A stretch of 64,000 nt of DNA from Bdellovibrio bacteriovorus (lineage in GTDB: Bacteria; Bdellovibrionota; Bdellovibrionia; Bdellovibrionales; Bdellovibrionaceae): positions 2,728,001-2,792,000 of the forward strand of contig NZ_CP020946.1 in the NCBI RefSeq assembly GCF_002208115.1. Direction: 5' to 3'. The notes beneath the pieces are model-generated. The model was not told the origin of the DNA, made no database searches, and was given only the letters and a program-made list of their open reading frames with translations. The position numbers and the translations under genes are program-made. Of the stretch, positions 4,557 to 14,814 are shown in pieces. Position 1 is the stretch's first letter, and every line of letters begins with the position of its first letter.

Positions 4557-5504
4557 GGCCTCGTGCAGATAGTAATCCAGCCAGCGCGTTCCACCGACTG
4601 GCAAGGACTGACGGTGCAGGTAGCCCATGTGGCCACCGCGCTTTTCAATATGCAACTGTACATGTTTGGAAAAAGGCGCGCGCAGGTAATCACCGACATC
4701 CACAAACGGATCATCCGCAGAAGTCAGGGTGTAGGTCGGCACATCAATGCCTGAAACATACTGAATCGATGAACAGCGCTGATAATAGTCCTCGCGACTG
4801 GCAAAGCCCGACGCCGGAGCCGTGTAAATCTGATCCATATCCCACACCGTGGCCCACTTGGGAATTTCATATTTTTCTGTGATCAAACCCAGGCGGTGTT
4901 TTTCTTCCACCAGCTTGCGCAGGCGCAAAACAAAACGCATGTCATAAACGCGATTAAAGCCCGACTTCAAAAGCAAAGAACCGGATTGCAGGTTTAACGG
5001 TGCATTGACGGTGATCGCTCCATCAGGCTTGTTCTTGCCGCCATATCCACCGAGCAGGCACAGCATGATATTGCCGCTCAGGGAATATCCGACCGATATG
5101 TGCTTTTTATGGGGGAACATCTGACGAAGCTGACCCAGCACCACAGACACATCCTCGGCGCTGCCGGAATGATAAGGGCGCTTGGCGAAGGGCGCGCCCT
5201 CACCGGCACCGCGATGGTTTACCAGAACCACCGTATGTCCCAGTTGCTGACAGATCAGCGCGGTTCTTTGCATATAGTCCGAAGTGACATCCCCGGAAAG
5301 ACCATGAAAAAGACTGACCACCAGATTGGTGTGTCCCTCGATCCAGGAACAAAAAAGTCGATCCCCGTCAGGAAGATCGACTTCAAATTTTTTACCGAAA
5401 TGCGAAAGCTCTGCGGACTTTAGAAAGTGAGCCCACAATGTCTGACCGTGACCGCTGTCGGCCCAAAAAGGCGCTGCACATGGAATCAGGTTCAGTCGTT
5501 GCAA
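4500..5504 (-). CDS. alpha/beta-fold hydrolase, YheT family
   Basis: Predicted cytoplasmic esterase of about 334 aa. Its start 'PFWADSGHGQTL' matches the characteristic YheT N-terminus. 'HGLSGD' is the oxyanion-hole region and 'GYSLSGN' is the nucleophile elbow with Ser near residue 140. The acid ('DDPF') and His ('KRGGHMGY') follow near the C-terminus, so the triad appears complete. The start is TTG at 5504, justified by AAGGAG five bases upstream; that ribosome-binding site lies inside the last codons of the DUF3465 gene, so the two are co-translated. The true substrate of this family is poorly known. The 3' end overlaps the opposing glycosyltransferase by 57 bp. Confidence 0.85.
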   Translation of the reverse strand: MQRLNLIPCAAPFWADSGHGQTLWAHFLKSAELSHFGKKFEVDLPDGDRLFCSWIEGHTNLVVSLFHGLSGDVTSDYMQRTALICQQLGHTVVLVNHRGAGEGAPFAKRPYHSGSAEDVSVVLGQLRQMFPHKKHISVGYSLSGNIMLCLLGGYGGKNKPDGAITVNAPLNLQSGSLLLKSGFNRVYDMRFVLRLRKLVEEKHRLGLITEKYEIPKWATVWDMDQIYTAPASGFASREDYYQRCSSIQYVSGIDVPTYTLTSADDPFVDVGDYLRAPFSKHVQLHIEKRGGHMGYLHRQSLPVGGTRWLDYYLHEALRGLEGTLNEKVPALSPK

Positions 5505-5506
5505 GT

Positions 5507-6052
5507 CTACTCCTTACAGTAGTACTGCCCGTTCACGTACACATATCCGTCCGGGCGTCTGCCGCGGGGATCGTGGTGAAGCCAGTGAAGCAGTCCACCC
5601 TTGTTCGTCCAGATAAATTGCCCGCCCATGGCGATAACGTCGCCGACTTTCAAAGGCACACGCGGGCACATATCCAGATTATACACAGCCTGCATCAGCT
5701 CGCCATTGGAAAGACGAACCACCCATTTTTGATGCTCCAGCCCGCTGTTGTCGTCCGGCAGGACCTTCACGACTGTCAGGCTGCCACCTTCAACGAAGTC
5801 CTCGCGACGACGATCATTCACCGCGCGTACCAGATCGGAATCACTGGCAGTTTCATCCAAAGACGCGGACGGCTCGTAACTAGAGTCTTCGCTCTGGCGG
5901 TTTTGTTTTTGTTGTTTGTTCTGCTTCTGACGACCTTCAGAATCCCAGGATTCCTCACGATTGTTGCGGCGCTTGGCTTCAACTGTTTCAACGTGGGCGA
6001 AAACAACGGCGAAGGCGAAAAGATAAATGCTGACTTTAGTGATGAATTTCAT
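5507..6052 (-). CDS. secreted DUF3465-family protein
   Basis: About 181 aa: a signal peptide (hydrophobic 'VSIYLFAFAVVFA'), then a charged low-complexity linker rich in Gln, Lys and Arg to about residue 75, then a DUF3465 domain. The domain shows 'VVKVLPDDNSG', 'HQKWVVRL', 'GDVIAMGGQF' and 'LHWLHHDPRGRRPDGY', which are the family's most conserved elements. The fold is probably OB-like; no activity is known. I chose ATG 6052 over an upstream ATG because GGGGAG precedes it and the signal peptide begins there. It is the first gene of a pair with the YheT-like hydrolase. Confidence 0.8.
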   Translation of the reverse strand: MKFITKVSIYLFAFAVVFAHVETVEAKRRNNREESWDSEGRQKQNKQQKQNRQSEDSSYEPSASLDETASDSDLVRAVNDRRREDFVEGGSLTVVKVLPDDNSGLEHQKWVVRLSNGELMQAVYNLDMCPRVPLKVGDVIAMGGQFIWTNKGGLLHWLHHDPRGRRPDGYVYVNGQYYCKE

Positions 6053-6105
6053 AGCTCCCCCTGCTATGCGCGGGAGTTTGCTAAAATGTGCGGACAAAGA
6101 CAACC

Positions 6106-6137
6106 ACTAAAAAAGGGATGCCATTGAAACATCCCTT
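6106..6137 (-). terminator. rho-independent terminator of greB
   Basis: Stem AAGGGATG (6113-6120) and CATCCCTT (6130-6137), with a run of A on the plus strand at 6109-6114 that reads as a U-tract on the minus strand. It lies 40 bases after greB and separates it from the DUF3465 operon. Confidence 0.85.
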
Positions 6138-6178
6138 CGAAGATTCGTTTGAATCTGATCTGACAGAATCTGTAAATT

Positions 6179-6655
6179 TTACTTAAACTCCACGTTCTCG
6201 ATAGTTACGAACTCTTCGCCGGCCGGCTTGACGATTCGTACTTCATCTCCCAATTTTTTTCCAAGAAGCGCACGCGCCACCGGGGACTTCCACGAGATCT
6301 TACCCACTTTCGGATCAAACTCATCTTCACCGACGATCTGATACACGACTTCATCACCCTCTTCATTGACCAACGTCACCGTGGCACTGAAAAGAACCGT
6401 GGTGCCTTTCATCTGTTTTGGATCGACAAGTTCGGCATCTTCAATTCGCTTTGTCAGAAAATGCACACGACGGTCGATTTCGCGCAATCGGCGTTTGCCA
6501 TACTGGTAGTCCGCGTTTTCGGAGCGGTCCCCGTTGCTGGCGGCCCAGGCAACAACTTCCACCAATTTGGGGCGCTCGACGTGCATCAGCGCGTGATATT
6601 CCGCCTTCAATTTAGCCAGACCTTCGGGGGTGATGTAGTTCTTGTTGTTATCCAT
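6179..6655 (-). CDS. greB: transcription elongation factor GreB
   Basis: A 158-aa protein that inserts into the RNA polymerase secondary channel and stimulates cleavage of backtracked transcripts. It has the N-terminal coiled coil with the acidic tip inside 'DRSENADYQYGKRRLREIDRR', followed by the C-terminal FKBP-like domain ('GKISWKSPVARALLGK'). 'YQYGKRRLREIDRRV' and 'FLTKRIE' are diagnostic of GreB rather than GreA. ATG at 6655; no strong ribosome-binding site is seen. It is a single-gene unit ending at its own terminator. Confidence 0.95.
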   Translation of the reverse strand: MDNNKNYITPEGLAKLKAEYHALMHVERPKLVEVVAWAASNGDRSENADYQYGKRRLREIDRRVHFLTKRIEDAELVDPKQMKGTTVLFSATVTLVNEEGDEVVYQIVGEDEFDPKVGKISWKSPVARALLGKKLGDEVRIVKPAGEEFVTIENVEFK

Positions 6656-6791
6656 ATGGCAAGACTCTAGACCATCTTCCAGAACCCTTCCAGCAAACTT
6701 TCCACAATTTCTTTACATCATCCTCGGACCTAGACTTTAGCTCCCTTTAATACTGAGACAATAACTCCGAAAAAAGTATGAGGAGGAATCG

Positions 6792-8603
6792 ATGAAAAAA
6801 CAGTGGAAACGTCTGCTTATCGCTGCATTAAGCTCGTCGTCCGTTTTTGCTGCAACGTGGTTCTGGTATCAGTCCACGGCTGACACACGGTCCTCCAATT
6901 CCAATGAAAAACCGCTGGCCTACGTCGGAAAAGTTGTTGAAGACATTCAACGCCGTCCCGCTTCACGTCTGTTGTGGCAGCTCGTCAATTCGGGTGAGCC
7001 CCTGTACAACGGCGAAGCGATTCGCACCAGTGAACGCGGTGAAGTGCGCATTCAGTTTGTGGATTCAGATCGTTATCTGGATCTGGAACCGGAATCCCTG
7101 ATCGTGATCAAAAAATCCGAAGGCGAAATCGCTTTGGATTTGATGGAAGGTAGTTTGTTCGTTAACGCCAAGACCGGAACCGCGGAAGGTAACGCTCCCG
7201 GCCTGGTGCTTAACTCTGCCAACGGTAAAGTCGATCTGTCTCAGGCTTCCGCTAGTCTTTCCAAGGGCCGCGGCGATTCCGTCGATGTTCAGGTCTTGGA
7301 AGGTAAGGCCTCCATCAAGAGATCTGACGGTCAAAGCAAAGATCTGACCACACGTGAAGAAGTCAAAATCCTGACTCCCCTGCCGCAAAAACCGGTGGCG
7401 ATGGATGCGGAAAATCCTGAAGCCGTGCCATTCCAGTGGCAGGGCTTCCCGGCCAACTCCAACGTCACTTTGTGGGTTGGGCCCAGCCGAAAACAATTGA
7501 AACCGCTGATGAAGGCGGCTCCGAATGCAAATCAACTTATGGCTTCACTGCCCTTCGGTCGTCACTACTGGAAACTTGTAGCGACAAATCCGCAAGGGTC
7601 GGTGGCTGCCGAAAGTGCTATCTATAAAACAGAAATCCTGGCCCGCTATGCGCCCACGATGGTCTTCCCGACGGCGGATGCCGAAGTGCCAGCAGTGCAG
7701 ACTCCTTATGATATGACCTTTAAATGGCAAAAGGGCGATGACACCCGACAAATGACCTTGGAACTGTGGGCGGATGAACAACTGAAAAATAAAATCTCCT
7801 CCAACACCTTCACCAAAGAAGAAAGCTTCACCGCTCCTGGCCTGAAAGGCGGCACCTATTTCTGGCGGATGACCACTTATTTTGTCGACACTGAAAAACC
7901 GGCTCTGGGGAAGGTACAAAAATTCACCATCAAACCGGCCAATCAGGTTCAGGCCAAAGTTGAATTCGTTCCCGTGCAAATCAACTTCACCATGCCTGAA
8001 AAAGACATGGTTCAGTACTACGTTGAAAAGCCCCGCCTGGGTCTTTCCTGGAAAGCGGACAAGGCCGAGAATGTCTCTGCATGGCGCGTGAAATATCACA
8101 CCGAAGAAGAAGACCCCGCCCTGGCTCAAAGCTTTGACGTCAAAGAAGTTCAAAACACTCAGGTGCAGGCGCCCGTGGCCCGTCCGGGTCGCTACATTGC
8201 TTCTATCGAGGCACTGAATAAGGACGGAAAGGTTCTGGGCACAACAAGTTCCCAGATTCTGACAGTCAGTCCCCTGCCTTTGCTGGAAGCTCCAAGCTTC
8301 ACACCCGCCGAAGGCACTTTGCAGGCTTCAATGGACGGTCGCACGCAGTTGACCTGGAATCCCGTGGAAGGTGCCAAAGAATACTGGCTGACCATTCGTA
8401 AGGATGGCAAGGAACTGAAACGCAGCAAATACATGCAAAACTCCACGGCATTAAAAAATCTTTTGCCGGGTGAATATGAAGTGGAACTGATCGCGGTGGA
8501 CACCTATGGCAGAAACAGCCAGGCCGGTCCGGCCAGAAAACTGCTGGTACCGGACAAGTCCAATGTGCGAGCCCCTACTTTAAAGAAGATCAAGGTTAAT
8601 TGA
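6792..8603 (+). CDS. FecR-domain protein with fibronectin-like repeats
   Basis: About 603 aa. The N-terminal hydrophobic segment (residues 8-27, 'LLIAALSSSSVFAATWFWYQ') may be an uncleaved anchor or a signal peptide. A FecR-like beta domain (about 45-165) carries 'LYNGEAIRTSERGEVRIQF', 'LDLMEGSLFVN' and 'VQVLEGKASIK'. The rest is made of beta-sandwich, fibronectin-III-like units with recurring 'FQWQGF', 'FKWQKGD', 'YFWRMTT' and 'LTWNPVEGAKEYWLTI'. AGGAGGA precedes the ATG. It is translationally coupled (TGATG) to the next gene and is first in a three-gene unit ending with an adenylate cyclase. FecR domains usually relay envelope signals; here no sigma/anti-sigma pair is adjacent. Partner and ligand are unknown. 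Confidence 0.8.
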   Translation: MKKQWKRLLIAALSSSSVFAATWFWYQSTADTRSSNSNEKPLAYVGKVVEDIQRRPASRLLWQLVNSGEPLYNGEAIRTSERGEVRIQFVDSDRYLDLEPESLIVIKKSEGEIALDLMEGSLFVNAKTGTAEGNAPGLVLNSANGKVDLSQASASLSKGRGDSVDVQVLEGKASIKRSDGQSKDLTTREEVKILTPLPQKPVAMDAENPEAVPFQWQGFPANSNVTLWVGPSRKQLKPLMKAAPNANQLMASLPFGRHYWKLVATNPQGSVAAESAIYKTEILARYAPTMVFPTADAEVPAVQTPYDMTFKWQKGDDTRQMTLELWADEQLKNKISSNTFTKEESFTAPGLKGGTYFWRMTTYFVDTEKPALGKVQKFTIKPANQVQAKVEFVPVQINFTMPEKDMVQYYVEKPRLGLSWKADKAENVSAWRVKYHTEEEDPALAQSFDVKEVQNTQVQAPVARPGRYIASIEALNKDGKVLGTTSSQILTVSPLPLLEAPSFTPAEGTLQASMDGRTQLTWNPVEGAKEYWLTIRKDGKELKRSKYMQNSTALKNLLPGEYEVELIAVDTYGRNSQAGPARKLLVPDKSNVRAPTLKKIKVN

Positions 8604-10219
8604 TGAAGTTAGGCAGTGCGTTCATTTTATTAATGATCTCTTTCTGGACCTCGATGGTTCTGGCGGCGCCTTATCGCCGTTTGGTGAACTTCGAGTGGGA
8701 GGCCATTGAGAACGCCAAGTCCTATGAAATCGAACTGAAACAAGTCAAATCCAGCAAAGAAGAAGAAGCCAAAACCTTCACCTTCAAAGTGACCGAAGCC
8801 GCCTGGAATGGTCGACTGACACCGGGCAAGTACATGATGAAACTTCGTTCCCGGGACTATCGTGGTGTGCCGGGTGACTGGAGTGAGCCAAGTGAATTCA
8901 ACGTCGGTCTTGAAACGGCCGTGCTGAAATTCCCAGGGGCCCGGGTGAAAATGGCGACGAAAGAAACCGACACCACGTCCCTTGAGTTCAAATGGGCTCC
9001 GGTCGGCGGCGCGGATCAGTATCATTTCGTGCTGACATCTGATGACGGCAAAACCCAGATCACGGAAACTTTGAAAGAGCCTTCTTTCAAAGTAAAAGTT
9101 CCGGTGGCTTCACACTATACGTGGAAAGTTTCATCCAGTAACAACGAAGGCATCACCAGTGATGCCACAGCCGTGGGGCAGTTCACCCTGCTGGGTAAAC
9201 CAATTGAAAATCCGCGCATTGAAAAGCCGGAAAGCGATTTCGTGCGTGAACTAAAATGGTCCCGACCGGATCATGTTTCCAGCTATGACGTTTACCTGTT
9301 GAAATACAACACGGCCGATAAAAAATGGGAAAAGCTGAAAGTTTATGAAAACTACCAGCAAGACACCCTGCCATTTGATGACAATCTTCCCGGTGGTAAA
9401 TACCAGGTGGTGGTCCGCGCAAAATCAGACCTGCGCCCGTCGGCCCCTCTTGCAAAACAATCCTTCTCGGTGCGCAGCGGGGATCGATCTCCAGCGGCGG
9501 AATACACGGCCTTGGTTCGTAAATCCATCGAACGCGTCACCGGCTGGTATGCAGTGGCAAGCTATCTGATCACTGAAATGTCCTATCAGGGTGTGAATCC
9601 GGAAAAGAACTCCTCTGTGGCTTACAAAGCCCTGGGCGGTACGGGCCGCCTGGGTGTGGGCTGGTTCAGTCCTCACACTCCTTGGGGTTTCCTGGGAATC
9701 ATCGACATGAGCGGCTTCACCTTCAATGGCAAAACCCAGACATTCGCTTCGGCTGAAGCCAATGCGGTTTACAGAAAATCCCTGGGGGACCGTGGAGAAG
9801 TGCGTTTCCAGGCAGGTCCTTATTACAAGGAACTTCCTGAGACCGTGGGCGATCCTTTCTCGGGTTCATCCGAAGATCTGAAAATCAGCTCTGCCGGTCC
9901 GCATTTTGGTGCTGAATACTGGTATTCCCTGACGCCGAAACTGGGCATTCAGGTGAATGCGCATCTATATATGTCTTTGATGAAAATCAGCACACCCAAT
10001 GGTGAGCCGATGGAACCCAAGATGTCGACTCAAATAGGCTTCCTGGGAAGTTATCGCTTCACGCCGCGATTTACAGGATTGATTGGTTATGCCATGCGTG
10101 AAGACAAGATGTCCTACAAGGCGAAAACCGGAACGGACAGCTTTGCCTCTGACGGAGATGTCAACGAGTTCACCATTATTGGTAACTATCTAAACGTTTT
10201 TGCCGAGTGGAGCTTCTGA
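8603..10219 (+). CDS. fibronectin-like repeat protein with C-terminal outer-membrane beta-barrel
   Basis: About 538 aa with a signal peptide ending near 'VLAAPY'. The first half has fibronectin-like units similar to those of the preceding protein ('VNFEWEAIENAKSYEIELKQ', 'LEFKWAPVGGADQYHF', 'RELKWSRPDHVSSYDVYL'). From about residue 315 the sequence alternates as membrane beta-strands and ends in 'EWSF', the C-terminal aromatic signature of BAM-assembled barrels. ATG 8603 overlaps the stop of the FecR gene by one base. The gene lies 13 bases before the cyclase. The matching domains suggest the two proteins interact or arose by duplication, bridging outer membrane and periplasm (inference). Confidence 0.72.
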   Translation: MKLGSAFILLMISFWTSMVLAAPYRRLVNFEWEAIENAKSYEIELKQVKSSKEEEAKTFTFKVTEAAWNGRLTPGKYMMKLRSRDYRGVPGDWSEPSEFNVGLETAVLKFPGARVKMATKETDTTSLEFKWAPVGGADQYHFVLTSDDGKTQITETLKEPSFKVKVPVASHYTWKVSSSNNEGITSDATAVGQFTLLGKPIENPRIEKPESDFVRELKWSRPDHVSSYDVYLLKYNTADKKWEKLKVYENYQQDTLPFDDNLPGGKYQVVVRAKSDLRPSAPLAKQSFSVRSGDRSPAAEYTALVRKSIERVTGWYAVASYLITEMSYQGVNPEKNSSVAYKALGGTGRLGVGWFSPHTPWGFLGIIDMSGFTFNGKTQTFASAEANAVYRKSLGDRGEVRFQAGPYYKELPETVGDPFSGSSEDLKISSAGPHFGAEYWYSLTPKLGIQVNAHLYMSLMKISTPNGEPMEPKMSTQIGFLGSYRFTPRFTGLIGYAMREDKMSYKAKTGTDSFASDGDVNEFTIIGNYLNVFAEWSF

Positions 10220-10232
10220 TCAGGAGAGAACT

Positions 10233-12062
10233 ATGAGAATACCGATTTCGACAAAACTCATTACAGTCACAATCCTGATCCTGGTTGCCGCCACCGGGAC
10301 CATCACCTGGATTTCGTCGTCTTACTTTGAGAAGAAAGCCGCAGAGCAGGTCGATATCGCGAACCTTGAATCTGCCGCAGCCAAAGCCAAAGAGATCGAA
10401 AACATCATCGCCAATCTGGTGGACAAAACCCGTGTCACCGCGTCCCTGCTGACCAAGGGCGCAAACTCTCAAGTACAAACCGGCGATGACTTTGACTTCA
10501 ACTTTACCAAAGACAAAAACTTTATTTCTCTGGAAGTTCTGAAGCTGGACGGCACCAGTGTGGAAACCGTGGCCCGCAGGGTGAAAGAAGACCTGCTGAA
10601 ACCCTATGGTCTTAACTCCACCTACATGATCCATGTGCGTTCATGGCAGAAATTCCCCATCCGCTCGGTGGCTCAAGGAAGCATTGAAATCAAAAATGCC
10701 ACTTACCCGAAAGCTCCGGCGATGATCACAATTGGCATCCCGCTGATCCGCGATGAACAAGGTAAAATCACCCACGTGGCTCTGGCCGATGTGACTTTGG
10801 CACCGTTTGAAAAACCCTTCACGGACCCGTCTGAACGCACCCAGTACCTGATTGACCGTCAGGGAGAGCTTCTCGCCCACAAGGACGAACAAAAAGCCAT
10901 GGCGCGATTGAACATGGCAAAGTATCCGATCGTGCAGAAGGCTCTGACACAAAAGTCACCACAGTTCCAAACCAAGTTCCTGAATCCTGACAACGACAAG
11001 GATTACTTCGGGGCTTCTGTAAAAACCTCTTACGGCGCCACGGTGATCTCCCAGACATCCGAAGAAACCATCCTGGAGGTTTCCCGCGAAGTAAAACGCC
11101 GGGCGATCTTCGTCGCCGGTTCCGCGATCTCGATGGCGATCTTCTTTATCTTCCTGTTCTCTATGACCCTGACCTCCCCGATTGAAAAACTGGCGGAGAT
11201 GATCAATCTCGTGTCCAAGGGTAACTTCAATGTGAAGGCCCGTGCCCAGGTGAAATCCCATGACGAAGTGGGCGATCTGGCCGAGGCCTTTGATCACATG
11301 ACCGAGGGTCTAAAAGAACGCGACAAGGTGAAAAGCCTGTTCTCGAAGTTCCACGGCTCTTCCGTTGCCGAGGACTTGATCAACAAGGACATCGGGGTTG
11401 GCGGTCAGACCAAAGACGTTGTTGTCTTCTTCTCGGATATTCGTGGTTTCACGGCGTTCTCGGAAAAACGATCTCCGGAAGAGGTCGTAGAGATGCTGAA
11501 TGAATACTTTGGTGTGATGGTTAAAATCATCAACTCCCATGGCGGGGTTGTGGATAAATTCATCGGGGATGCGATCATGGCGGTCTGGGGTGCGCCGAAG
11601 AGCTCGGACAAAGACGCCCATCAGGCCGTGCGTGCGTGTCTTGAAATGCGCCGCGCTTTGGAAGGCCTGAATGAACGCCGTATTGCCCGCGAACAGCCGC
11701 CGATCAACATCGGTATGGGCCTGCACGCCGGAAAAGCAATTTCCGGAACGATCGGTTCAGATGAGCGCATGGAGTACACGGTGATCGGAAACACGGTGAA
11801 TACGGCTTCGCGAATTGAAGCCTCCACCAAGGCTTTCGGTGCGGATCTGCTGATTTCAGACACCGTCATCGAAAAAATCGGTGAAGACTTCAAGACCGAA
11901 CTTGCCGGTGCCGCCGAGGTCAAAGGACGCTCGGAGGCTTTGAAAATGTTCAAGGTTCGTGGTTATCGAGCGGAAGATGGCTCGATGGTGGAAGTGCGCA
12001 CTGCCTATTCTGACTATGAAGCGGAAGCCGCTGACAAGGTCAAAATCAAAGACGCAGCTTAA
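10233..12062 (+). CDS. membrane-bound class III adenylate cyclase with extracytoplasmic sensor and HAMP
   Basis: About 609 aa: TM1 (about 7-27), a periplasmic sensor of roughly 260 residues with a Cache-like 'YLIDRQGELLAH' stretch, TM2 (about 291-315), HAMP ('SPIEKLAEMINLVSKGNF'), and a C-terminal cyclase domain. Metal-binding Asp residues are in 'FFSDIRGF' (about 401) and 'FIGDAIMAVWG' (about 446). The purine-specifying Lys ('DKFIG', about 441) and Thr ('EYTVIG', about 516) predict ATP rather than GTP. The transition-state pair is in 'NTVNTASRIE'. All catalytic residues are present, so cAMP synthesis is expected. Start ATG 10233 follows AGGAGAG; an upstream in-frame start lies inside the barrel gene. 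It probably reads out the state of the envelope proteins encoded before it. Confidence 0.9.
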   Translation: MRIPISTKLITVTILILVAATGTITWISSSYFEKKAAEQVDIANLESAAAKAKEIENIIANLVDKTRVTASLLTKGANSQVQTGDDFDFNFTKDKNFISLEVLKLDGTSVETVARRVKEDLLKPYGLNSTYMIHVRSWQKFPIRSVAQGSIEIKNATYPKAPAMITIGIPLIRDEQGKITHVALADVTLAPFEKPFTDPSERTQYLIDRQGELLAHKDEQKAMARLNMAKYPIVQKALTQKSPQFQTKFLNPDNDKDYFGASVKTSYGATVISQTSEETILEVSREVKRRAIFVAGSAISMAIFFIFLFSMTLTSPIEKLAEMINLVSKGNFNVKARAQVKSHDEVGDLAEAFDHMTEGLKERDKVKSLFSKFHGSSVAEDLINKDIGVGGQTKDVVVFFSDIRGFTAFSEKRSPEEVVEMLNEYFGVMVKIINSHGGVVDKFIGDAIMAVWGAPKSSDKDAHQAVRACLEMRRALEGLNERRIAREQPPINIGMGLHAGKAISGTIGSDERMEYTVIGNTVNTASRIEASTKAFGADLLISDTVIEKIGEDFKTELAGAAEVKGRSEALKMFKVRGYRAEDGSMVEVRTAYSDYEAEAADKVKIKDAA

Positions 12063-12274
12063 GGCACGCTGGCGGGAGCGCGTGAAGTGCCTGCCGCCGC
12101 GACCTGCTTGCGGCTGAATTCTTCTGCCACAGCAACAGTCTGTCTATATTCCGGATATATAAAGGCTTCAGTGACGTGAACCTGCTTGGTGGGATCTTTT
12201 GGTCCCACGCTGGCGCAGGATACGACATTAATAAGCAACAGACACAAAAGCACTAGCTTTAGATTGATACGCAT
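12059..12274 (-). CDS. small lipoprotein
   Basis: A 71-aa protein with a lipoprotein signal ending in the lipobox 'NVVSC', so the mature chain is about 50 residues. No known domain; the C-terminus is Ala/Ser/Pro-rich. ATG 12274 is preceded by GGGGGG, the same G-run type of ribosome-binding site as at 12588 and 12910. It runs tail to tail into the cyclase gene, sharing stop-codon bases. Confidence 0.65.
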   Translation of the reverse strand: MRINLKLVLLCLLLINVVSCASVGPKDPTKQVHVTEAFIYPEYRQTVAVAEEFSRKQVAAAGTSRAPASVP

Positions 12275-12587: not shown

Positions 12588-12872
12588 ATGACGAAGGTAA
12601 TGGGTGGACTTTTACTATTCACACTGATCGCACCAGTAAAAAGCTTTGCTAAAGATGGTATCGGCACCGGCGACTTTAATCAGATGATTGAAGAAAACAA
12701 CGCTGCTGCCAGGAATCTGAACAACACCATCACACGCAATGTCAGTTCAGAAAACACCTTTAAAGGTGAAGTGATCACCGTCGTGCAAAGCACGCGCAAT
12801 CCGGTGAAATACAATCCGTTCCTGCTGGAGGACGAAGTCGAAGTGAAATCACTGCGCGATCAGAATCACTAG
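12588..12872 (+). CDS. small secreted protein of unknown function
   Basis: A 94-aa protein with a signal peptide (cleavage probably after 'VKSFA'). The mature part is hydrophilic and Asn-rich ('ENNAAARNLNNTITRN') with no recognisable domain. The ATG is preceded by a GGGGGGA ribosome-binding site. It stands 37 bases before the large lipoprotein gene with a like-type site, so the two are probably one transcript. Confidence 0.65.
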   Translation: MTKVMGGLLLFTLIAPVKSFAKDGIGTGDFNQMIEENNAAARNLNNTITRNVSSENTFKGEVITVVQSTRNPVKYNPFLLEDEVEVKSLRDQNH

Positions 12873-12909
12873 TTCGCAAGTATTCAGTTTTAAATCCGGG
12901 GGGATTTTC

Positions 12910-14814
12910 GTGAATAAAGTAACTAAACTTTCAAAAATTGTTCTGTGTGGAGCGCTTGTTGAGGCTGTCGTAGGTTGCAGCCAACCTGTACGTTTTGCCC
13001 CCTCAGTCCTTGAACAAAGCTCATTGACGGACAACGTTTTCGGTCAGACGCCGGTGATCCCGGAAGTTGAAGAACCTAAAGTCGATCCGTTCAATCCATA
13101 TAAACACATGTCTGACATCAGTCAGGGTGACGATTCCATGACACCCAACATTGCCGCTGACGAAGGCTTGAACGGTAAAGCCGTTTCAAACTGCGAGCGT
13201 CAACGTGCTGACGGCAGTGACCGTTATGAAGAAGAACGCCTGGCAGCCCTGGCGGCGGCAAAAGCGGACACTTCTTTGATTCCCGTGCGCTTTTCCGTGT
13301 CTGCCGGCAGCGCCGAAGACGCGATTGCCCAGTGGTCCCACGAAAGATCCATTCTGCGTAAAGAATCCAATGGTGTGACACCGTTCTATGTGGGCGCGGC
13401 TAAAAAAGACAGCGCTGCGGATGCCTGCAAATGGTCCACGAACTGCAACAAAGCAGCGGTAAAAACCAATCACTTCCACTATATCGCTGACCACCAGCAA
13501 GCCCGCCGTGAATTCATCGCGGGTGAAAAATGCTTCTTCAGCACCGTGCGCGCGATTGCCAGTGTTGATGACGTGGGTGCCGTGACTGTCTTTGCAGAAG
13601 GCGCCGCCGCTCCAGCAGACGTACTGGCCGTGCAAAACCATTCCCTGCGTAACTTGTACTATGGTGAATCCTATGAAGACATCGTTGATTCCGGCAGTCC
13701 CCGTCTGTTTAAAAAACTAGGCGATGGAACTCCGAACATCGTGTCCCTTTATGTTGCCGACCTTCGTGAAAACGTCGTCGATAAATCCGGCAAGACCGTC
13801 AGCATTCTGACGCCGGAGTTTATTAAATTGAGTAAAGGCCTGACCCGCGGTGATGAAGTCCGTTTGACCTTCAAAGAAATCTTCTCTTTGAGAACCCTTT
13901 GGACCGAGCGTGAATTCGTGACCAATGTGCTGTCCTCGCAGCGCACTTCCAAAGCCGGCACCCTGTCAGCTTACGAAGGTGTGCCACAGCTGATCCAGTG
14001 GCTGGTTCATTCCGGTGTCGAAGGCACGGCGATGAGCACCAAGTACACTCCGCTGGTTCTGGATTTGGGTGTAAAAAACGTTCGCACTTCCAGCCTTGAG
14101 GGCGGAAGCTTCTTCAACCTTGCTAACATCCAGGCGCCGGTGACTCACATGACGGCATGGTTGGGTGGTAACCTGGTTGTGCGCGAGTCCACAAACAGCG
14201 TGAACAAAACCCACTTCAGTCGTGAAATTGATGACGGCTTCCTGGTGGTTCCGAATGCGGATGGCAGCATCACAAGTTCTCAGAACCTGTTTGGTTCTCA
14301 GATGAAGGTGTCTGTGAACGGTGAAGAAAAAACTTTTGCCAACGGTTTTGAAACTTTGGCGGCGCTGGCGGCAAAAGACTGTCAGTCCGAAGATCCAAAG
14401 AAGCATTACCTGGGCCCTTGGGATGGTGAACTGTACAGCCAGAAAATCAAAGTCTGGGTGGACAAAAACCGCAATGCGGTGGCGGATGCCGGTGAAGTCA
14501 TCAGTCTGGCCGATGCGAAAGTGGCTGCGATCAATGCCTGCCACGTGGTTTATGCCAATGAAAAAGACAAGTACGGCAACAGCACTGAATTGCGCTCTCC
14601 GTTCCTTATGTTCAAACAGGGCGAATCAGATCTGGCGGAAGAGGAACTGCTGACCCGTCTGGCAACAGGTAAAGACAAAGACGGTCAGGATGTCGAGTTC
14701 CGTCTGATGGTGGATATTTTCTTTAAAGCGAAACCAGGCGTGATCCTGGAAAACATTGATACGACGGGCCTTCCGGCTGTAGGAGGTGCCCAGCTCGCAC
14801 AAATTGTTCAGTAG
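12910..14814 (+). CDS. large lipoprotein of unknown function
   Basis: About 634 aa, starting with GTG at 12910 behind CGGGGGGA. The signal ends in a lipobox 'VVGC', so the mature N-terminal Cys should be lipidated. The following 50 residues are Pro- and acid-rich, as in a tether. Several Cys pairs ('CKWSTNC', 'ACHVV') fit an oxidising compartment. A segment near the C-terminus ('DKNRNAVADAGEVISLADA') looks like an EF-hand-like, dockerin-type calcium loop. No enzyme family was recognised. It ends at a strong terminator and is probably co-transcribed with the 94-aa secreted protein. Confidence 0.7.
   Translation: MNKVTKLSKIVLCGALVEAVVGCSQPVRFAPSVLEQSSLTDNVFGQTPVIPEVEEPKVDPFNPYKHMSDISQGDDSMTPNIAADEGLNGKAVSNCERQRADGSDRYEEERLAALAAAKADTSLIPVRFSVSAGSAEDAIAQWSHERSILRKESNGVTPFYVGAAKKDSAADACKWSTNCNKAAVKTNHFHYIADHQQARREFIAGEKCFFSTVRAIASVDDVGAVTVFAEGAAAPADVLAVQNHSLRNLYYGESYEDIVDSGSPRLFKKLGDGTPNIVSLYVADLRENVVDKSGKTVSILTPEFIKLSKGLTRGDEVRLTFKEIFSLRTLWTEREFVTNVLSSQRTSKAGTLSAYEGVPQLIQWLVHSGVEGTAMSTKYTPLVLDLGVKNVRTSSLEGGSFFNLANIQAPVTHMTAWLGGNLVVRESTNSVNKTHFSREIDDGFLVVPNADGSITSSQNLFGSQMKVSVNGEEKTFANGFETLAALAAKDCQSEDPKKHYLGPWDGELYSQKIKVWVDKNRNAVADAGEVISLADAKVAAINACHVVYANEKDKYGNSTELRSPFLMFKQGESDLAEEELLTRLATGKDKDGQDVEFRLMVDIFFKAKPGVILENIDTTGLPAVGGAQLAQIVQ

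Follow-up and report, generated by a model that had tools for sequence, protein, structure and literature searches.

Does Bdellovibrio bacteriovorus possess a route by which a change in the outer membrane could set the activity of an adenylate cyclase in the inner membrane? The question is raised by three adjacent genes in a 64,000-nucleotide stretch of its genome (NCBI contig NZ_CP020946.1, positions 2,728,001 to 2,792,000 of the forward strand; hereafter the window). From the sequence alone, an original prediction had proposed these genes as a candidate new trans-envelope signalling operon. Their positions in the window are as follows.

6792-8603, plus strand: gene 1, FecR-FN3 protein (603 amino acids), where FN3 denotes fibronectin-III-like domains
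8603-10219, plus strand: gene 2, FN3-armed barrel protein (ATG at 8603; 538 amino acids)
10233-12062, plus strand: gene 3, Cache-HAMP adenylate cyclase (ATG at 10233; 609 amino acids)

The start codon of gene 2 lies inside a TGATG, giving a 1-base overlap with gene 1, and a gap of 13 bases separates genes 2 and 3; the tight packing had been described exactly. The cluster is probably a signalling module, and we lean towards a trans-envelope relay that would run from the barrel through a FecR rod to the Cache-HAMP cyclase, with no sigma factor involved.

The gene set recurs across the phylum Bdellovibrionota, and it is therefore a real and ancient module, not a chance cluster. The three proteins were searched for separately in 140 genomes of the order, and full-length matches were counted. 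Barrel protein and cyclase occur together in 69 genomes, the cyclase only in 8, the barrel protein only in 5, and neither in 58 (Fisher p 2e-24, a test that ignores phylogeny and uses presence and absence sets transcribed by hand from search tables). All three genes share a strand at 30 loci from 16 genera, the window included (for one genome, G038, the FecR gene was taken from the protein search, not from the map of open reading frames, ORFs), and most junctions are short or overlapping. A predicted outer-membrane component is encoded within the cluster itself, as had been claimed. Identity of the barrel protein is 97% in the genome G004 and 85% in B. bacteriovorus strain kdesi. Elsewhere the arrangement varies. 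Family f9 and others keep the FecR and barrel genes together, with a cyclase gene that is either convergent, close by or at another place in the genome; several other lineages have it divergent from the pair. One genome (G063) carries a second complete copy of the module, and three loci (L061, L065 and L067) are second copies of the barrel only.

A side observation concerns a genome of 3.0 Mb (G005), in which the barrel gene is read as two frames of 472 and 79 amino acids (L043, G005:C1:792610-794236) and may be broken; the FecR and cyclase genes of this genome are intact.

At a threshold of E 1e-8, a search with the barrel alignment only hits 152 of 368 Bdellovibrionota genomes, FN3-only relatives included, and a contig scan with a 7-member barrel alignment yields 14 loci, all in Bdellovibrionia. 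Among 20 distant loci retrieved within the class and phylum, the barrel protein has the FecR protein beside it in 17 and the cyclase in 16, the latter a count that includes a fragment at a contig end (L124) and allows up to two intervening ORFs. Two of the four loci without a cyclase (L123 and L125) are on short contigs. The cyclase gene is mostly on the opposite strand at these loci, in divergent order. Because gene order differs there, the association of the FecR-barrel pair with the cyclase has survived rearrangement; no other observation argues as strongly that the genes form a functional unit. A chance cluster kept by local synteny would fit the GreA/DUF3465 neighbourhood, which is also conserved within the genus, but distant families keep the three genes together among different neighbours and in different orientations, and we give this explanation practically no weight. 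The operon proposed at the outset stands as a conserved unit. The words 'candidate new' understate a module that is old and phylum-wide, and CHASE2 cyclases and kinases coupled to FecR had already been published.

The third gene encodes the proposed output. Its product matches PF00211 (3e-30) and HAMP (1.9e-10), together with dCache_1 at residues 48-278 of the ORF (E 1.2e-7; 31.9 bits against a Pfam cut-off of 45 bits). The sequence contains the two metal-binding Asp residues, the adenine-selecting Lys with its Thr/Asp partner, and the transition-state Asn and Arg of class III adenylate cyclases. All six positions (D402, D446, K442, T516, N523 and R527) are invariant in 62 of 62 homologues, which bears out the prediction of a membrane cyclase with every catalytic residue. 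The pair Lys442/Thr516 is what is expected for Thr-subclass class III adenylate cyclases. Cyclic AMP (cAMP), the output originally proposed, is likely to be the product in vivo. Mean column identity is 0.73 in the catalytic domain and 0.43 in the Cache domain, the least conserved part; an invariant catalytic hexad behind so variable a sensor is counted in favour of the relay. By its position and the cyclase list in PMC6717892, protein 3 is probably the ortholog of Bd1116, one of four HD100 adenylate cyclases listed there. The sensor is read as dCache-type and is combined with HAMP; it is not a CHASE2 domain. The CHASE2 adenylate cyclase of the source genome is a separate protein (L136, G000:C1:1234000-1247000), whose gene directly adjoins that of a 967-amino-acid protein without a Pfam match (6375-9017 and 9042-11942, minus strand).

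The second protein is the candidate outer-membrane component, and is organised as follows.

N-terminus: signal-like, signal peptide
about residues 24-290: three FN3-like domains, predicted periplasmic
residues 297-309: linker helix
residues 314-537: predicted 10-strand outer-membrane barrel
residue 538: C-terminal Phe

Its AlphaFold2 model (pLDDT 85, pTM 0.50) contains ten long strands and places FN3-like domains at 26-290. Compared with the Protein Data Bank (PDB) by VIA-align, the barrel is best matched by OpcA (Z 23.4, root-mean-square deviation 2.7 A over 209 residues), followed by the omptins OmpT and Pla (Z about 17), all of them 10-strand barrels; the N-terminal part matches fibronectin fragments (Z about 12). 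One fn3 match exceeds the Pfam threshold (3.4e-6, residues 202-283). Of 50 homologues, 47 end in F, L or Y. With its signal-like N-terminus, predicted barrel and terminal aromatic or hydrophobic residue, the protein is predicted to reside in the outer membrane. A barrel, whose absence from predicted structures was among the grounds on which the original proposal was to fall, is present in the model, where it ends in Phe, and is recognisable among barrels of the PDB. It is not a TonB-dependent receptor, which would have 22 strands and a plug; ten strands and no plug are predicted here.

The first protein would connect the two membranes. Its parts are as follows.

about 7 residues at the N-terminus: short, positively charged segment ahead of the membrane helix
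about residues 8-30: single membrane helix
about residues 43-190: FecR-like beta domain
residues 192-590: four FN3-like domains
C-terminus: tail RAPTLKKIKVN

The window's own protein 1 gives no Pfam FecR match even at E=1, whereas PF04773 is matched by 20 of 32 aligned members of its family (best 1.3e-9), so its relatedness to FecR rests on the family. An Ig/FN3-like model is matched by 26 of the 32, and an MtxA Ig-like model by five FecR-family members; these matches agree with the FecR/fibronectin protein that had been predicted. The AlphaFold2 model (mean pLDDT 84, pTM 0.52) has tandem FN3/Ig proteins as its PDB matches. From the length of the helix and the absence of a consistent cleavage site in homologues, the protein appears to be anchored in the inner membrane, and with the family matches it can be read as a membrane-anchored periplasmic protein with a FecR domain.

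A FecR domain in this family could also indicate classical cell-surface signalling, in which protein 1 would be an anti-sigma regulator of an unlinked extracytoplasmic function sigma factor and the cyclase incidental. With only about 7 residues ahead of its membrane helix, protein 1 has no space for an anti-sigma domain in the cytoplasm. Neither a sigma factor nor a TonB-dependent receptor is encoded in the cluster or its flanks, although unlinked sigma factors were not searched for. This explanation is very improbable and was rejected.

A different partner for the FecR domain is suggested by a second pair in the source genome (L135, G000:C1:1490000-1506000).

7131-9311 of L135, minus strand: FecR-FN3 protein of 727 amino acids
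9388-11244 of L135, plus strand: dCache-HAMP-SpoIIE phosphatase, divergent from the FecR-FN3 protein

Matching search coordinates and 19 further loci read directly show this pair to be conserved throughout the order, and no barrel gene adjoins the SpoIIE-linked FecR proteins, with one possible exception (L153). FecR-FN3 proteins thus recurrently pair with Cache-HAMP receptors of differing output, and the conservation of this second pair suggests that FecR has the Cache-HAMP receptor for its partner. Also in this genome is a FecR/FN3-like protein of 986 amino acids without a Pfam match, adjoining a 160-amino-acid ORF (L138, G000:C1:858000-873000; 4817-7774, minus strand).

The other end of protein 1 shows a different distribution. 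A tail motif, AP-x-x-K-x-I-K-V, ends the FecR proteins linked to barrel and cyclase and is kept far across the phylum. A regular expression defined after inspection of the sequences finds it in 50 of 51 and 14 of 16 barrel/cyclase-linked FecR proteins, and in 2 of 20 SpoIIE-linked ones, where it is not enriched over a background of 23 in 280. At one locus (L165) a tailed FecR protein adjoins the cyclase near a contig end, and barrel and cyclase partners are not separable there. The tail is also found in a reduced pair that lacks a cyclase.

L139 5810-8358, and L140, L141 and L142: FN3-FN3-barrel protein next to a short protein that is membrane-anchored and has a single FN3-like domain and the AP tail; no cyclase

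These short FecR-like proteins (178-202 amino acids) pair with FN3-FN3-barrel proteins, which have 624-672 amino acids at the four loci. In the FecR-family profile, the final FN3 unit matches the FN3 units of protein 2, in line with the earlier remark that proteins 1 and 2 share similar fibronectin-like units. The tail follows barrel partners, even those without a cyclase, and not SpoIIE partners. Most simply, these distributions would assign the tail and the last FN3 domain to the barrel, and the FecR part to the Cache-HAMP receptor. In a mirror-tree comparison, distances of the Cache domain show a modest correlation with those of FecR and barrel that goes beyond the catalytic domain (partial r 0.36-0.45); this is suggestive of contact but could also come from shared fast evolution.

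The cyclase-less pairs at L139-L142 also suit an explanation in which the FecR-FN3 and barrel proteins form a structural tether or adhesion complex, and the cyclase, merely co-regulated, senses a small-molecule ligand of its own through the Cache domain. FN3 rods and an OpcA-like barrel would be appropriate to such a complex, and the cyclase lies apart from the pair in some f9 genomes. However, the pair keeps turning up with the cyclase, in differing gene orders, throughout the phylum, presence and absence of the genes coincide, and FecR-FN3 proteins lacking a barrel still pair with Cache-HAMP receptors. A tether or adhesin of this kind seems unlikely.

In the relay that we prefer, the barrel protein would be embedded in the outer membrane, its three FN3 domains reaching into the periplasm, and the FecR-FN3 protein, anchored through its N-terminal helix to the inner membrane, would extend four FN3 domains toward the outer one. 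Contact with the barrel protein is probably made by the last FN3 domain and the conserved tail, and contact with the cyclase, at its Cache domain, probably by the FecR domain near the inner membrane. If something changed at the outer membrane, whether ligand, contact or envelope strain, the FecR-Cache contact would be altered, and the alteration would pass through HAMP to change cAMP synthesis. Topology and linkage suggest that the signal would travel in this order (barrel, FecR rod, Cache, HAMP, cAMP); a sigma factor would play no part.

Several observations weigh against this relay. The cyclase gene is elsewhere in the genome in part of family f9 (L078, L079 and L084), the genome G134 has the cyclase without any FecR-barrel pair, and a few genomes keep FecR and cyclase genes without an adjoining barrel gene (G042, which has no barrel, and G025, where it is elsewhere). 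Unrelated neighbours of the cyclase in relatives had been named in advance as grounds for doubt; this is not the situation in most lineages, with separation confined to part of f9 and true absence of the pair to few genomes, such as G134. The FecR-Cache and FecR-barrel contacts are themselves hypothetical, the arrangement of domains is uncertain in the AlphaFold2 models (pTM 0.50-0.52), and the tail pattern was drawn up after the fact.

The stimulus could also be internal. As a sub-version of the relay, the module might act as an envelope-state checkpoint, in which the default state of the cyclase, off or on, would be imposed by the FecR rod, and what the barrel signals would be its own folding or the integrity of the outer membrane, not an outside ligand or prey. 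Classical FecR is established as a regulator released by an outer-membrane protein, and the module is phylum-wide and not tied to predation in this analysis, but the sign of regulation is not readable from sequence; we consider the checkpoint possible, if rather doubtful. A broader form of the relay is put forward tentatively, at somewhat less than even confidence: the barrel would directly control the inner-membrane cyclase through the FecR-FN3 rod, without TonB or sigma factor, as one member of a phylum-wide FecR-FN3/Cache-HAMP family whose outputs (cAMP or SpoIIE) have been exchanged in evolution.

Upstream of the cluster, on the opposite strand, lie genes for GreA and a DUF3465 protein. 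About 525 bases downstream, a 94-amino-acid ORF is followed by one of 634 amino acids (window 12588-14814); the second starts like a lipoprotein, the two are retained together in the closest strains, and neither has a family match. Convergent with the cyclase gene is a lipoprotein-like ORF of 71 amino acids (MRINLKLVLLCLLLINVVSC...; window 12062-12274, minus strand), whose matches are confined to the closest relatives (93% in L038 and 51% in L039). Rfam and tRNA scans of the region gave nothing useful, and promoter and terminator scans gave counts at or below the shuffled expectation.

In B. bacteriovorus, cAMP is tied to the control of cyclic di-GMP through the cAMP-sensing phosphodiesterase Bd1971, and the cyclase that supplies it is unsettled (PMC6717892). 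The module offers a concrete, deletable candidate for an outer-membrane-to-cyclase connection, relevant to how Bdellovibrio and its relatives sense a prey cell or damaged envelope at the surface and signal inward. The parallel SpoIIE pair suggests that FecR-FN3 proteins generally act with Cache-HAMP receptors; if true, this would widen the usual anti-sigma reading of FecR. Within the literature collection that was searched, there was no description of a FecR-FN3/barrel/Cache-HAMP cyclase module, which is apparently undescribed. Searches on Bd1115-Bd1118 gave none beyond the cyclase list, those combining FecR and HAMP with fibronectin or SpoIIE gave nothing relevant, and one on Bdellovibrio and FecR returned nothing on the subject by title or abstract.

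Among known systems, the FecA-FecR-FecI scheme likewise combines an outer-membrane barrel with an inner-membrane FecR-domain protein. In contrast to it, the present cluster and its flanks contain no TonB-dependent receptor, sigma factor or anti-sigma segment, and a cyclase takes their place; the components of that scheme are named in PMC9239204. The FecR-FN3/SpoIIE pairs of the same order also set a FecR-FN3 protein beside a dCache-HAMP receptor, but they have a phosphatase output, no adjoining barrel gene and no AP tail. That FecR genes beside cyclases are known mainly with CHASE2 sensors, as originally stated, agrees with the published clusters. In Campylobacterota, a CHASE2 adenylate cyclase, a FecR-domain outer membrane protein, a phosphodiesterase and a TPR protein form a cAMP cluster (PMC9239204). 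There too a FecR-domain protein is clustered with a membrane adenylate cyclase, and a common pathway was proposed; however, the sensor is CHASE2, neither the phosphodiesterase nor the TPR protein is seen here, and no separate FN3-armed barrel is described. The Burkholderia BiofilmReg operon encodes a LysM-FecR protein, a CHASE2 histidine kinase and a response regulator, and FecR-domain proteins are clustered with such kinases in relatives too (PMC5192318). As in the window, the operon's FecR gene adjoins an inner-membrane receptor gene and not a sigma factor, but it differs in its LysM and CHASE2 domains, its histidine kinase output and its lack of a barrel. In the Magnetospirillum mtxA cluster, the gene for the TPR/FN3-like MtxA precedes that of a CHASE2 adenylate cyclase (PMC4439547), again an FN3-like protein ahead of a cyclase with an extracytoplasmic sensor; it has CHASE2 and TPR domains, no barrel, and no mention of a FecR domain. 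What is new here relative to the FecR-CHASE2 systems is the Cache-HAMP receptor and the encoded FN3-armed 10-strand barrel.

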